Part shown: positions 18,404 to 33,671 of the stretch, in pieces
Numbering within the stretch: position 1 is the stretch's first letter
Layout: each line of letters opens with the position of its first letter
Origin: Bacteroidales bacterium
Lineage (GTDB): Bacteria > Bacteroidota > Bacteroidia > Bacteroidales > UBA932
NCBI GenBank assembly: GCA_017439305.1
Contig: JAFSJK010000038.1
Span: 1-54,163 of the forward strand
DNA length: 54,163 nucleotides
Direction of reading: 5' to 3'
Made by a program: the position numbers and the translations under genes
The notes under the pieces: generated by a model
The model's input: the letters and a program-made list of their open reading frames with translations, nothing else
Database searches by the model: none
Told to the model about the DNA's origin: nothing

Positions 18404-20143
18404 CTACCGCTCGTAGTCGATGAACTGCCGGAGGCACATCAGGGAAACGATCGTGCCGTCAATCTTCCGCTCCGGAGAGCGCTTGATGGGTTTCTTGTTC
18501 TCGAGATTGTCCTCATCAAGGACGGCGTTCCCGAAGCAGAACGCATTGATAGGATTCTCGTCCAGGAATATCCTGCCGGTCTTGATTCCATGCTCGAAGG
18601 ACTGCACCGGCGCCGTGAAATAGCCATAGGTCTGACGGACCGGCTTCAGGACATTCTTGGCGCCGGCGGCGGCAAGCATGTTCACGACCTCCTGGCTCTT
18701 CCACGGGTCGAATCCGATTGACAGTATTTGCAGATACTTGTTCGCATCGAGGACGCAGTTGACGATGACCTTGTAGTCAATGACGTCGCCCGGCGTGAGA
18801 GTGAGCCACCCCTGCTCCGCCCAGATCCTGTACAGGCGCTCGTTCGGATGCCCTTCCAGGGCGCCTTCCGGGAAGAAGTATTTCACGACGAAATAGTACG
18901 CCTTCTGGGCGGAGTCATAGACGCTGAAACCGACGGCGGAGAAGTCGTCGCTCTCGGAAAGGTCGATGGCGCACATCGCCGGAGGCCTCCCCAGGAATCC
19001 GCTCAGATCCATCTTCCTGGTCGCCTTCGATATCACCTTCGGAGTGATCCATGCGGCCCGCTCACTGATGGCGAAGATGTTCAGCAGCTTCGTCCGGAAG
19101 ACCATCCGGTTGTCGGCGGAGAGCTGCGCGTTCGCCCATTCCTTCTGATAGAAATCCTCGCGGACGGTCACACCGAGATGCGGCTGCACCTTCCTCCAGG
19201 TCTTCGGATCTCCCTCCTCGTCGTCCACATCCGGAAGGAACAGGGCTGCGTAGATGCTGTCATTCTCCATTTCGCCGCGAAGGACCTGCATCACGCCGTC
19301 GAGCTCGCGGGCGAATGGACCGTCGATGACCTCCGAGGCCGTCGTGCAGACTACGGTCAGCGGCTGACGCCGGGCGCCCATGGACGAGGTGAGGACGTTC
19401 TTCAGGTCGGCGCCGGAATGGGTCGCGGTATCTCTCGCCTGGGCGTACTCGTCCATGATGACGAGCGAGGCGTTCAGACCGTCGAGCGTCTTCGCATTGG
19501 ATGCCAGGCAGCGTATGAACGAATCCCGTCCTCCCTGCTTGAAGAAGATCTGCTCGCGGTTCACCTGGATGGCCATTCCGGAAGGGTCGATATCCCTCAT
19601 GATGGCGCGGATCTCGTCGAAGCATATCTTCGCCTGTGAATAGGAATTCGCGCCGACGTAGGCCTGCGCGTTGCTGTCGCCGAACAGCATGTCGTAGATG
19701 GCCAGGGATGCCACCGAGGTGGTCTTCGAGAATTTTCGCGGAACGAAGAGATAGACGTCGCGGATGAGCCTCAATCCCTCGGCGTTGTAGAATCCGAAGA
19801 TGTTGCCGAAGATGAACGCCTGAATCGGCGTCAGCTTGTACCGGCGCCGGTGATCCACGCCGGAAAAGCGTAGCGCCTCGTAGAATTTGAAGAAGTGGCG
19901 CACCTTCCCAGGACGCCACTCATATTTCCCCAGAAGATAGAAGAACCGGTTGACCCCGAGAATCTCATAGAGGTTGTGCTTCTCCGGATTCCAGATGACC
20001 TCGGTGACATAGTCCCCGATTCGCTTGTCGGTTCCGAAGAGCGCCGTCTGATGGACCGAGCACAGCATCACCGCCGACTCCTGGAGCCGGCGTGACACGT
20101 CTTCCTTCAGGCGTCGCAGCCCTTCTTTCTCCTCATCGGTCAT
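18404..20143 (-). CDS. terL: Terminase large subunit
   Basis: 579 residues. The ATPase half has an atypical Walker A (VPRKFSKTTSVAS) and a Walker B with catalytic Glu (SLVIMDEY). The nuclease half begins AIDLSESDDFSAVG with the metal-binding Asp. This is the HK97-type large terminase, which cuts concatemers and drives packaging at the portal. ATG at 20143 overlaps the small-subunit stop by 4 nt (ATGA). The usual Gly of the loop is replaced by Ser (FSKTT), as in some relatives. Confidence 0.93.
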   Translation of the reverse strand: MTDEEKEGLRRLKEDVSRRLQESAVMLCSVHQTALFGTDKRIGDYVTEVIWNPEKHNLYEILGVNRFFYLLGKYEWRPGKVRHFFKFYEALRFSGVDHRRRYKLTPIQAFIFGNIFGFYNAEGLRLIRDVYLFVPRKFSKTTSVASLAIYDMLFGDSNAQAYVGANSYSQAKICFDEIRAIMRDIDPSGMAIQVNREQIFFKQGGRDSFIRCLASNAKTLDGLNASLVIMDEYAQARDTATHSGADLKNVLTSSMGARRQPLTVVCTTASEVIDGPFARELDGVMQVLRGEMENDSIYAALFLPDVDDEEGDPKTWRKVQPHLGVTVREDFYQKEWANAQLSADNRMVFRTKLLNIFAISERAAWITPKVISKATRKMDLSGFLGRPPAMCAIDLSESDDFSAVGFSVYDSAQKAYYFVVKYFFPEGALEGHPNERLYRIWAEQGWLTLTPGDVIDYKVIVNCVLDANKYLQILSIGFDPWKSQEVVNMLAAAGAKNVLKPVRQTYGYFTAPVQSFEHGIKTGRIFLDENPINAFCFGNAVLDEDNLENKKPIKRSPERKIDGTIVSLMCLRQFIDYER

Positions 20144-24497: not shown

Positions 24498-24788
24498 TTA
24501 CCGGACGATTACCCAATCCTCGAGCAGCATATCCGTCTGGGAGGCCAGCCAGCCGGTAAGAATCTTCCCGTCCGCCGTCTTCATGCAGATAGTCCCGAGA
24601 GCCTCAACCTCGCCTCCGTTCGCTTCCGCGATATCTTTCAAGATGGGGTCCTTGCACCATTCGGCCTTGATGGTTGCAGCCGGTTTGAGCCACAGGTACA
24701 TTCCCTTGCCGTTCCATCCCTTACGCGCCACCTTCTTGCCCTGTTTCAGGGCTTCAAGGGCTTCTCCAAAAGTGTATAATCCTTCCAT
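24498..24788 (-). CDS. tad2: DUF2829 protein, Tad2-type anti-Thoeris homologue
   Basis: 96 residues. Full-length match to the DUF2829 pattern: TFGEALEALKQGKKVARKGW, NGKGMYLWL, MKTADGKI and GWLASQTDMLLEDWVIV. Known members (Tad2) sequester the Thoeris signal gcADPR so that phages escape this NAD-depleting defence. The gene lies in the accessory block where anti-defence genes cluster. Assignment to DUF2829 is strong; activity against a particular Thoeris type is inference. No membrane segment. Confidence 0.85.
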   Translation of the reverse strand: MEGLYTFGEALEALKQGKKVARKGWNGKGMYLWLKPAATIKAEWCKDPILKDIAEANGGEVEALGTICMKTADGKILTGWLASQTDMLLEDWVIVR

Positions 24789-26578: not shown

Positions 26579-27043
26579 TTACTTGGTTTGTCTTTCGTTG
26601 TCTTTCAGACAGGCGTCGATGTAACGGACGTCGCCGGTCGTGTTCTTGTTCACCTTCGGATGGGTGCAGCGCGTATAGTAGCCTCCGGAGGTGTACCGCG
26701 CACCGGCGGCGTAGTTGCACAGGTGGCATATCGCCGGCGGGCCCGGCTTGTCCCAGGGACGCATGTTCCCGAGGTAAGGGATGGCGCGGACGGCCTCGTA
26801 GGACATCCCGAACACCTGTGTCTTCGGCAGCAGCGGCTTCACGAAATGCGTCTGACCCTTCTTCGGATTCGGAAGTTCGAAGGCGGCCAGCGCCAGGTAG
26901 CAGGATTCACCGTCGAACCTGACGGGGCCCGCGTTGTCCTCCAGGGGGATGCAGACGCGGTGGCACGGCTTCCCTCCGACGACCATCTCCTCCACGGTGA
27001 CGTTCCGCAGCTTCATCAGGTCTATCTGGATGTTGTAGTTCAT
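26579..27043 (-). CDS. Hypothetical phage protein with Cys/His cluster
   Basis: 154 residues from ATG at 27043, overlapping the replication gene's stop as ATGA. The C-terminal third has CHLCN, CTHP and DACL, a likely zinc site. A longer upstream frame is the shadow of the replication gene. Coupled to replication by position; role unknown. Confidence 0.6.
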   Translation of the reverse strand: MNYNIQIDLMKLRNVTVEEMVVGGKPCHRVCIPLEDNAGPVRFDGESCYLALAAFELPNPKKGQTHFVKPLLPKTQVFGMSYEAVRAIPYLGNMRPWDKPGPPAICHLCNYAAGARYTSGGYYTRCTHPKVNKNTTGDVRYIDACLKDNERQTK

Positions 27044-28128
27044 GACGCGGCGAAGGTTATGGATGCCATCTTGGCGAAGTGCTTCTTGACTATGGGGGCC
27101 GCGACGTCGACGTGGCGGTCGTACCAGTCGACGGGGAGGCCGGTGCCCGTCCACACCAGGTCGTAGGACTTCCTGTCCTCCCTCCAGGAGAGGCGGCAGC
27201 GGAAGGAAGGATTGACAAGCCAGAGAGGATTCTCCGGGTCGCCGGCGGAGCAGGCTACCTCGTACAGCTCTCCGCACATCTTCAGGAAGGCGGCGTTCGC
27301 CTTCGCCTGGGTCTCGCGGTCCTCGGCGTTCCCGAAGTCCGCGGACAGGCGGCCGGCGCCGCTCTTGAGTTCCCACATCCGTGCGAGGCCGCGCCGCTTC
27401 ATCGGCGTGTCATACCGGCGCCCGTCCTTCGACTCCCAGCCCAGGGACTCGTAGTAATTCTCGAACCTCTTCACCTCCGCCGCCGGATCGGCGGCGTTCT
27501 TTTCCCAAAAAATTCTATAAAATTCTCTCCTCTCTTCTGGCTGGATGGGGCACGGTCTCCGTGCCGCATCAAGATGAAAGAAATATTTATCTGAGTGCTT
27601 ACAAGAGTGCTTGACTACATTATCAATAGGCTCGGGTGCAGTTTCTGCACCTTTGCAGTGCAGTTTCTGCACCTTTATGGGTGCAGTTTCTGCATCATTC
27701 GGGTGCAGTTTCTGCACTCTTCCCAAAGGTGCAGTTTCTACACCTTTGGCTTTTCCGTATTCCACGGGTGCAGTTTCTGCACCTTTGGACTTTTCGTACA
27801 GGCTGTACGGTCCGAGCGGATCCCCGGACGAGACCCTCTTGAGCAGGTCCTCGTAGTTGGTCCAGTACTCGAAGGTGGACTTCCCGCGGTACACGACCTT
27901 GCTCCGGTTGATGTACCCCTTGTCCAGGAGACTCTTCAGGACGGCCTTGATGGACCGCTCCGATGCGCCGGTCCACTTCATCAGGTCCTCCGGGAAGGCC
28001 CGGTAGTGCTGCTCCCCGTCCTTGGTGAAGCCGTGGATCACGGCGAACACCAGGAGCGAGACGCCGCTCAGCCCAAGCGCCGATATCATCGGCTCCTGGA
28101 TGACAATGTAATCGTTTCTCTTCGGCAT
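27040..28128 (-). CDS. Phage replication initiator with internal iterons
   Basis: 362 residues from ATG at 28128, two bases after the upstream stop. The N-terminal ~110 residues form a winged-helix phage replication domain (GVSLLVFAVIHGFTKDGEQH, MKWTGASERSIKAVLKSLLD). A linker (about residues 115-170) is built from iteron sequence read in two frames (AETAP and VQKLH). The C-terminal part is helical. This resembles lambda O, in which the iterons lie in the initiator gene. A helicase loader was not found in the window, so host DnaB may be recruited directly. Confidence 0.8.
   Translation of the reverse strand: MPKRNDYIVIQEPMISALGLSGVSLLVFAVIHGFTKDGEQHYRAFPEDLMKWTGASERSIKAVLKSLLDKGYINRSKVVYRGKSTFEYWTNYEDLLKRVSSGDPLGPYSLYEKSKGAETAPVEYGKAKGVETAPLGRVQKLHPNDAETAPIKVQKLHCKGAETAPEPIDNVVKHSCKHSDKYFFHLDAARRPCPIQPEERREFYRIFWEKNAADPAAEVKRFENYYESLGWESKDGRRYDTPMKRRGLARMWELKSGAGRLSADFGNAEDRETQAKANAAFLKMCGELYEVACSAGDPENPLWLVNPSFRCRLSWREDRKSYDLVWTGTGLPVDWYDRHVDVAAPIVKKHFAKMASITFAAS
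27636..27782. repeat. Six palindromic iterons, candidate prophage replication origin
   Basis: A 15-bp palindrome (GTGCAG, TTT, CTGCAC) occurs at 27636, 27658, 27681, 27703, 27729 and 27768; copy 3 ends in T instead of C and copy 5 has A for G at position 12. Starts are 22, 23, 22, 26 and 39 bp apart, about two helical turns for the first four. An A+T-rich stretch lies beside them at about 27505-27535. They are inside the initiator gene, in the linker. Spacings are not multiples of 3, so the DNA, not the protein, is what is conserved. Confidence 0.8.
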
Positions 28129-30332: not shown

Positions 30333-30526
30333 GCGCAGTCCTCCTTCTTTTCAACGACCTTTCCGGCCGGATAGAACGCAGCTGTCAGGATGGCGGCGGA
30401 CACGACGTCCACCAGGGCGGAGTCGCAGTGGATGGCGCGAGCGATCTGGAAGGAATAGTCCCAGATGAGGATGGCGCAGATGAGGATGGCGAGCATAGCC
30501 ATGATGTAGATGAGCTTGTGTTTCAT
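30329..30526 (-). CDS. Small membrane protein
   Basis: 65 residues with an N-terminal hydrophobic helix (LIYIMAMLAILICAILIWDY) and a second weak one (ALVDVVSAAILTAAFYPAG). Overlaps the next start by 4 nt (GTGA). Function unknown. Confidence 0.55.
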   Translation of the reverse strand: MKHKLIYIMAMLAILICAILIWDYSFQIARAIHCDSALVDVVSAAILTAAFYPAGKVVEKKEDCA

Positions 30527-32007: not shown

Positions 32008-32394
32008 ATGTGTAAGACAGTGAAAGAACGACTGGCCGCTTTTATCAAATTTAAGGGCCTATCTAAGAACAAATTCGAGACTATCTGCGGACTCAGTAGA
32101 CGATACGTGAGTAATATAAGCAGATCTATTCAGCCAGAAACATGTGAGAAGATTTCTCTCAAATTCCCGGAATTAAATATGGGGTGGGTGCTTACCGGCG
32201 AGGGCGAAATGCTCAAGGAGCCGCCCGGTGAAGAGAATGTAGCCGGAGTCATGATACCTCAAGAGCTTGTAAGAATGTTCACCAACATGACCGAATCAGC
32301 GCGGATCCAGGAAGAGAATATCGCGAAACTTGCGGCAATGGTGGACCGCCTTACCGGCGGCGCCGAGACACAGAAAAAAGAGAATGCCGGATAA
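32008..32394 (+). CDS. CI-like phage repressor (XRE helix-turn-helix)
   Basis: 128 residues. An N-terminal XRE-type HTH (KERLAAFIKFKGLSKNKFET, then CGLSRRYVSNISRSI) and the typical NMGWVLTGEGEML sequence after it. The second half is helical and may oligomerise, without the LexA-type autopeptidase. It is divergent to the early genes and faces two palindromic operators. Derepression by an antirepressor, rather than by self-cleavage, is inferred. Confidence 0.85.
   Translation: MCKTVKERLAAFIKFKGLSKNKFETICGLSRRYVSNISRSIQPETCEKISLKFPELNMGWVLTGEGEMLKEPPGEENVAGVMIPQELVRMFTNMTESARIQEENIAKLAAMVDRLTGGAETQKKENAG

Positions 32395-32424: not shown

Positions 32425-33671
<1,247 letters not shown>

Follow-up and report, generated by a model that had tools for sequence, protein, structure and literature searches.

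In-gene replication origins have so far been described for a few model replicons. In lambda and the Stx phages, the origin is located in the middle of the O gene, where iterons lie beside an A+T-rich region (PMC7466680, in the text available). The initiator gp38 of SPP1 binds oriL within gene 38, as described in the accessible part of PMC6316719, and Rep of the plasmid pSK41 binds boxes located centrally in its own gene (PMC5703833, available part). The same source, in that part, describes pPR9, in which a phage-like version of HTH_36 type takes the place of both the N-domain and the origin region; the mini-replicon replicates. Lambdoid initiators each have their own iteron, and differing in-gene iterons among related initiators have already been published, according to the available excerpts of that literature. 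The HTH_36 initiators of Paracoccus plasmids are also replication proteins with iteron-like repeats; in the excerpts available, these repeats are located in oriV regions, one of them at the rep start codon, whereas those described here lie mid-gene.

The window analysed here, meaning the whole stretch of 54,163 nucleotides, belongs to a genome of 2.99 Mb in 90 contigs. A tailed prophage fills most of its left part, with minus-strand genes for tape measure, capsid, maturation protease, portal and terminase, followed by a DNA-metabolism region; a repressor-like gene is found at 32008 on the plus strand. The prophage also encodes a Tad2-like protein (24498-24788, minus strand; Thoeris anti-defence 2 domain, Pfam E 2.2e-25), and a fusion of an exonuclease (RNase_T) with BRCT is encoded two genes past the repressor-like gene (32790-33671, plus strand). 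An initiator-like gene of the window contains an array of palindromic iterons. The preferred reading, with a probability of about 0.85, is that this array is the replication origin of the tailed prophage, located as in lambda O/ori within the gene of the initiator and bound by the N-terminal domain of that protein.

The iteron array and its initiator gene

Six copies of GTGCAG-AAA-CTGCAC (coding strand), two of them with one mismatch, are located at 27636-27782, within codons 116-165 of the initiator gene (Table 1). The unit is a palindrome with a 3-bp centre, and the start-to-start spacing is 22, 23, 22, 26 and 39 bp. Two reading frames are used, four copies encoding ETAP peptides and two encoding VQKLH. 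A window-wide motif scan found no further copy at zero or one mismatch outside the array; when up to two mismatches were allowed, the window contained nine matches against 2.00 ± 1.39 expected, a number reached in 0 of 100 shuffles. Permutation of synonymous codons within the gene, preserving the protein and the codon usage, gave 0 to 3 copies (at most one mismatch) and never six in 2000 trials, so the array is no by-product of the protein and is under a DNA-level constraint that the protein sequence does not explain. The observation of a six-copy array in the window is confirmed. The sequence-only reading had described six copies, two with one mismatch, at exactly these positions, spaced by about 22 bp and then 26 and 39, read in two frames (AETAP and VQKLH), conserved at the DNA level, located in the linker of the initiator and different from lambda-type iterons. 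All of this was recovered: the six copies lie inside the linker, and their letters differ from those in the lambda record.

Table 1. Features of the initiator gene and its iteron array (positions in the window)
Feature	Position	Strand	Detail or basis
Initiator-like gene, 362 aa, ATG at 28128	27043..28128	-	PHROG profile matches
N-terminal winged-helix DNA-binding domain, aa 6-106	27811..28113	-	AlphaFold2, Foldseek
Recognition helix, aa 57-70	27919..27960	-	AlphaFold2, covariation
R58 (model column 52)	27955-27957	-	Residue covaries with half-site position 5
Linker, aa 108-200, holding all six iterons	27529..27807	-	Predicted disordered, pLDDT <50
Iteron 1 (first in coding direction)	27768..27782		GTGCAGAAACTGCAC on minus strand; motif scan
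Iteron 2	27729..27743		1 mismatch, GTGTAG arm; motif scan
Iteron 3	27703..27717		Exact, other reading frame (VQKLH); motif scan
Iteron 4	27681..27695		1 mismatch, ATGCAG arm; motif scan
Iteron 5	27658..27672		Exact, other reading frame (VQKLH); motif scan
Iteron 6	27636..27650		Exact, closest to the A+T-rich side; motif scan
A+T-rich stretch adjoining iteron 6	27500..27625		Composition; candidate unwinding element by lambda and SPP1 precedent
C-terminal region	27046..27540	-	Candidate contact to helicase, loader or primase

The initiator matches PHROG 428 and 270, both replication initiation proteins (E 2.7e-6 and 1.1e-5), and phrog_6969, annotated as unknown (E 2e-13). In Pfam, HTH_36 and DnaD_N are both found below threshold, HTH_36 reaching 18.2 bits against a curated cut-off of 25. 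RepA_N is absent from the four Pfam matches of the initiator (E up to 1), and the resemblance to RepA_N is at fold level only. The AlphaFold2 model, made from 26 sequences, has a pLDDT of 77-95 over aa 11-100, with a mean pLDDT of 65.7 and a pTM of 0.36 for the whole model; its C-terminal region is of low to fair confidence, and a Pfam search of 27046-27600 recognised no family. Among the PDB structures that Foldseek matched to the winged helix are regulators of archaeal and MarR type, the N-domain of DnaD (2v79) and the initiators 4pt7 and 5kbj, which we take to be RepA_N proteins. As the best E value is 8e-4, this likeness is one of fold only.

The layout had been proposed to mirror lambda O/ori, and the comparison bears this out for position, palindrome shape and spacing and, within the window, for a moderately A+T-rich side. 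The first annotated lambda iteron starts at nt 349 of O and the first 15-bp core at nt 347 of the gene studied here; palindromic iterons lie mid-gene, with the A+T-rich side downstream, and the lambda spacing is 20-24 bp. Gene 18 of P22, gene 18 of phage L and the Stx phages are the kin of lambda O/ori in this comparison. The locus differs from lambda by its iteron letters, by the lack of a strong O-family match (PHROG 678, “O-like”, matches weakly with E 0.038, and the winged-helix domain profile built from relatives does not match lambda O) and by a neighbourhood in which no P-like gene was recognised. The RepA_N protein Rep of pSK41 is similar in that a winged-helix N-domain binds central in-gene Rep boxes, the linker being dispensable according to the available part of the source, and the AlphaFold2 domain is similar in fold to the N-domain of DnaD and to initiators of known structure. 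However, pSK41 and pPR9 are staphylococcal plasmids with different repeats by description, and the C-terminal region of the initiator studied here matches no family. SPP1 gp38/oriL can be set beside the locus by description only, from a source available in part: it also has repeats and an A+T-rich element inside the initiator gene, but it differs by a second origin and by its own loader and helicase.

The adjacent A+T-rich run that the sequence-only reading had pointed out is present but moderate. Read in the coding direction, the 100 bp that follow the array have 54% A+T, compared with 42% in the 100 bp preceding it and 41% in the whole ORF; the best 30-bp window reaches 80% after the array and 50% before it. 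Among relatives, A+T is higher after than before the array in about 28-30 of 46 loci, with 5 ties, which is a weak signal.

Arrays in related initiators

Scanning for pairs of this palindrome separated by 5-12 bp retrieved 43 viral contigs, and the reversed-letter control gave no match. In 36 of these contigs, a profile detects the winged-helix domain in the ORF that contains the array; it detects none in the other seven (L005, L009, L010, L020, L021, L028 and L035), two of which, L005 and L035, have an ORF cut at the contig or locus start. L009 (9439-9584) and L010 (9010-9155), and also L020 and L028, carry GTGCAC/GTGCAG-TTT-CTGCAC sites with spacings of 34, 74 and 23. The same doublet scan of a genome collection found 12 places, of which five are of the winged-helix initiator kind, in Aeromonas (Pseudomonadota), Winkia (Actinomycetota), Marinomonas, Psychrobacter and a Bacteroidales genome (L057); the initiator of the last is 78% identical to that of the window and has five sites. 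L057 being the nearest relative, the host of the prophage is probably also one of the Bacteroidales. Seven places (L049, L050, L051, L054, L056, L058 and L059) were rejected, having no winged-helix domain by profile and resembling chance or unrelated repeats. GTGCAG-N3-CTGCAC arrays are found in genomes of at least three phyla, including elements of Pseudomonadota and Actinomycetota; the repeat is not private to the prophage, as the word also occurs in other phage families. Close to the host, such loci are uncommon. Among 395 genomes of the phylum, both the doublet and profile A1 (E 1e-5) were found in the genome of the window only. The search of 99 family genomes returned this genome and G428 (L065) only. 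G428, from the family of the host, has an array of another word, of the GGNGAAA type.

With profile A4, which was built on repeat-fetched loci, at least 575 relatives of the Pseudomonadota type were found. The best 80 of these yield 74 distinct regions, all of which contain two or more sites with no more than two mismatches; 73 of the 74 have an array at 0/40 shuffles, and many have one arm altered (ATTCAC). GTGCAG arrays with the other arm altered are also found in mEp460 and ST64B. In many Pseudomonadota-type loci (e.g., L006, L008 and L013), a conserved R(T/I)SHSxEP stretch follows the last iteron.

Relatives found by their protein mostly have an array at the same position with other letters. 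The array word is GGTTGGAAAATCCAACC in the Bacteroides phage BKO1-3, and other words include GTAAAGAAACTTTAC, the TAAAC and TGCAAC types, GTGACA, GGTGAAA and more. Among the 98 scored rows (out of 100 domain rows in 99 loci), 89 have an array just 3′ of the winged helix at 0/40 shuffles, and 79 of these also have a palindrome score of at least 4.2. Once the repeat-fetched rows are set aside, an array at 0/40 shuffles is found in 52 of 57, and 42 of 57 are clearly palindromic. Both the 98- and 57-row counts include the window and are not thinned for redundancy, near-copies such as L068 of L061 being kept; L066 and L067 were dropped from the domain-profile stage on as second copies of L062 and L063. 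A significant array is also found in 42 of 51 nonredundant held-out loci. At the strictest shuffle level, no array is detected in 9 of the 98 rows and 9 of the 51 held-out loci, several of these nine held-out loci still showing the expected repeat. In a set of 37 loci (36 analysed, with L067 omitted, plus L044), no shuffle out of 60 was as good for 31 of them, the exceptions being L072, L082, L086, L089, L099 and L102. As a positive control, the scanner recovers the four annotated lambda iterons. The register of the sites was set by palindromy on an odd centre, imposed by the script, and a few loci (e.g., L147, L107 and L113-L116) may sit in a shifted register.

Iteron units in relatives have arms of about 7 bp, spaced by 21-24 bp in 118 of 146 intervals, and the arrays mostly comprise 3-6 sites (up to 8) located about 250-350 bp into the gene. 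More than one reading frame is used in 33 of 46 nonredundant arrays and in 63 of 67 significant arrays of a later set (78 loci, not thinned). The close homologues L057, L061, L062 and L063 have their arrays at the same place; the absence of iterons from close homologues with a conserved protein had been named as the observation that would count against an in-gene origin, and these relatives have them. In L061 and L062/L063, both arms are changed at some sites, and such both-arm changes occur in homologues of 71-76% identity.

Two groups of phage arrays deviate in form. The Pseudomonas phages phi2 and LPPA33 (L110 and L111) have seven-unit arrays of a less symmetric CCCCGCAG-type repeat, with three 17-bp steps followed by steps of 21-23 bp. 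ZF40 and BUCT709 (L107 and L108) have SKSA in the recognition helix and a partly palindromic TGTGCC/TATGCC.. repeat in an otherwise Pseudomonadota-type initiator.

Recognition helix and repeat letters

The covariation of protein and repeat was analysed on the 79 of 98 rows with an array at 0/40 shuffles and a palindrome score of at least 4.2, thinned to 45 loci at less than 85% identity, or to 34, 29 and 24 loci in further sets. In the 45 loci, column 52 shows the strongest association with iteron difference once the rest of the domain is allowed for (partial r 0.483, the next column reaching 0.294). Among windows of seven columns, the one at the start of the recognition helix scores best, with 0.485 against at most 0.350 in 500 permutations. 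Because many of the 45 loci had been fetched by the repeat itself, the analysis was repeated without them, and the recognition helix was still the best window in the resulting 29 and 24 loci (0/1000 permutations). Overall, each of the four overlapping data sets has its best window on the recognition helix, three of them with 0/1000 permutations. In the set not fetched by the repeat, column 52 is not the top column; columns 53 and 55 are higher in both thinnings, and columns 22 and 4 in one. Ten significant rows of this kind fell under the palindrome cut (L069, L085, L094, L101, L102, L108, L110, L111, L118 and L120), leaving four Arg rows uncounted (L069, L110, L111 and L120).

The base at half-site position 5 follows the residue at column 52. 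At less than 70% identity, with repeat-fetched loci included, G is found at position 5 in 20 of 20 loci with Arg52 and in 4 of 14 with other residues. Shared descent was addressed with a tree of 91 tips, made with the helix columns left out. On this tree, Arg goes with G in 35/35 tips, Pro with A in 24/24 and Lys with G in 4/4; among tips that the repeat had not fetched, Arg goes with G in 14/14. Of 19 independent pairs with a difference at residue 52, 17 also differ in the base, compared with 4 of the 33 pairs that share the residue (p 3.7e-8). All 74 Pseudomonadota-type regions have Arg52, hence they cannot test the rule.

The prediction of Arg with G and Pro with A was written down before held-out loci were fetched. 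The best 80 loci by protein profile were taken; two are truncated, and the 78 analysed yield 51 nonredundant loci that are less than 85% identical to the training loci and belong to the same broad families. In the 40 of these whose array is significant with a palindrome score of at least 4.2, Arg goes with G in 5/5, Pro with A in 17/17 and Lys with G in 3/3 (Arg versus the rest, p 3.8e-4). The other residues were Gln (A in 5, C in 5), Asn (G in 1, T in 1), Ser (G in 1, T in 1) and Gly (T in 1); Gln, Ser and Asn leave the base unfixed.

Three of four plasmid loci have significant arrays, L204 being the exception (4/40 shuffles). L201 (Pro, A) fits the rule and L202 (Lys, A) does not. Two plasmids lie outside the tallies above. 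The one from Lachnospira eligens, with SRPT in the helix, has the expected GTAAAA array. In the other, the Treponema saccharophilum plasmid pTS1 (L202), Lys at column 52 of the first winged helix goes with A at position 5, not G. The pTS1 protein apparently has two tandem winged-helix domains, followed by a five-copy array of weaker palindromy.

The arrays of relatives, together with the way their letters covary with the recognition helix, make it very probable that the initiator binds the repeats of its own gene, and comparison of these sequences makes its own winged helix the likely reader. This covariation speaks for binding and not for origin activity.

Role of the array and significance

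By analogy with lambda O, SPP1 gp38 and pSK41/pPR9, replication would start at the array. The N-terminal winged helix, probably as a dimer, would bind each GTGCAG-N3-CTGCAC iteron through its recognition helix, with a probable contact between R58 and the guanine at half-site position 5. From several such iterons, placed roughly on one helix face by the 22-23 bp spacing, a nucleoprotein complex could then assemble and open the A+T-rich DNA beside it, and the C-terminal region may bring in helicase machinery of the host or of the phage. The disordered linker encoded there would explain how a coding region can hold the array.

The alternative that survives best, although improbable, is that the array is an operator: the winged-helix protein would occupy sites within its own gene and thereby block or tune transcription, the origin being elsewhere. 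Covariation is evidence of binding and is equally expected of an operator. In addition, the GC skew does not turn at the array (cumulative minimum at 30364 and maximum at 19898 in the window), and hence it is counted as no support for an origin. However, arrays of so many sites at such a distance inside a gene are unusual for an operator, and in lambda, SPP1 and pSK41 the same layout is an origin, as far as the available parts of the sources describe. Furthermore, helicase or loader genes follow the initiator in some relatives. Among 18 named phage records (lambda excluded, five of the next genes being run against Pfam), the gene after the initiator encodes a DnaB helicase or a loader in four, by Pfam or by record annotation: DnaB in ZF40 and BUCT709, an IstB/DnaC-like ATPase in Va_PF430-3_p42 and an annotated P-like loader in phi2; the remaining next genes are mostly annotated as hypothetical. 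No helicase or loader was recognised among the subset of window ORFs whose proteins were searched, and the host could be the supplier of this machinery.

It is very unlikely that the palindromes are kept as mRNA hairpins. Judged from its letters, the unit could form a stem of 6-7 bp closed by a 3-nt loop, and both-arm changes do occur, but a hairpin gives no reason for the letters to follow the recognition helix of the encoded protein and does not predict the 21-24 bp spacing of relatives. Even less probable is a host protein as the reader of the repeats in place of the initiator. The presence of the same arrays in at least three phyla could suggest a shared reader, yet such a reader would not explain that the word of Bacteroidota-type phages varies from phage to phage with their own recognition helix. 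The idea of a linker peptide repeated for the sake of the protein is hardly tenable, since, even though the motif is translated over its whole length and 127 of 192 sites share the commoner codon phase, most arrays use more than one frame, synonymous permutation yields at most three copies and the linker is predicted to be disordered.

With the array read as an in-gene origin, the locus itself is a variant of a known layout, and the covariation rule is the part that is new to the specialist. In the literature searched, which had most subscription papers outside it, neither this iteron word in phages of Bacteroidota nor a residue-to-base rule for in-gene iterons was found to be described. It seems probable that the locus belongs to a large class of initiators, from phages and plasmids of several phyla, that have their own sites in linker-coding DNA and in which one recognition-helix residue largely sets one half-site base (Arg or Lys with G, Pro with A, Gln mostly with A or C), GTGCAG-N3-CTGCAC being one specificity found across Bacteroidota, Pseudomonadota and Actinomycetota by common descent or by convergence. 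The same layout is found in dozens of divergent phage loci, many of them annotated as “hypothetical protein” where named, and in plasmids of Bacillota and Spirochaetota. As protein and site share a gene, every locus provides a natural pair of protein and DNA, and together these pairs are a ready data set on the choice of DNA by winged helices.

To our knowledge, few origins are known in Bacteroidota phages. If the proposed class is real, the origin sequence and the compatibility group of an uncharacterised phage would be readable from its initiator gene; origins would become predictable in Bacteroidota phages, and the incompatibility of prophages would become testable.
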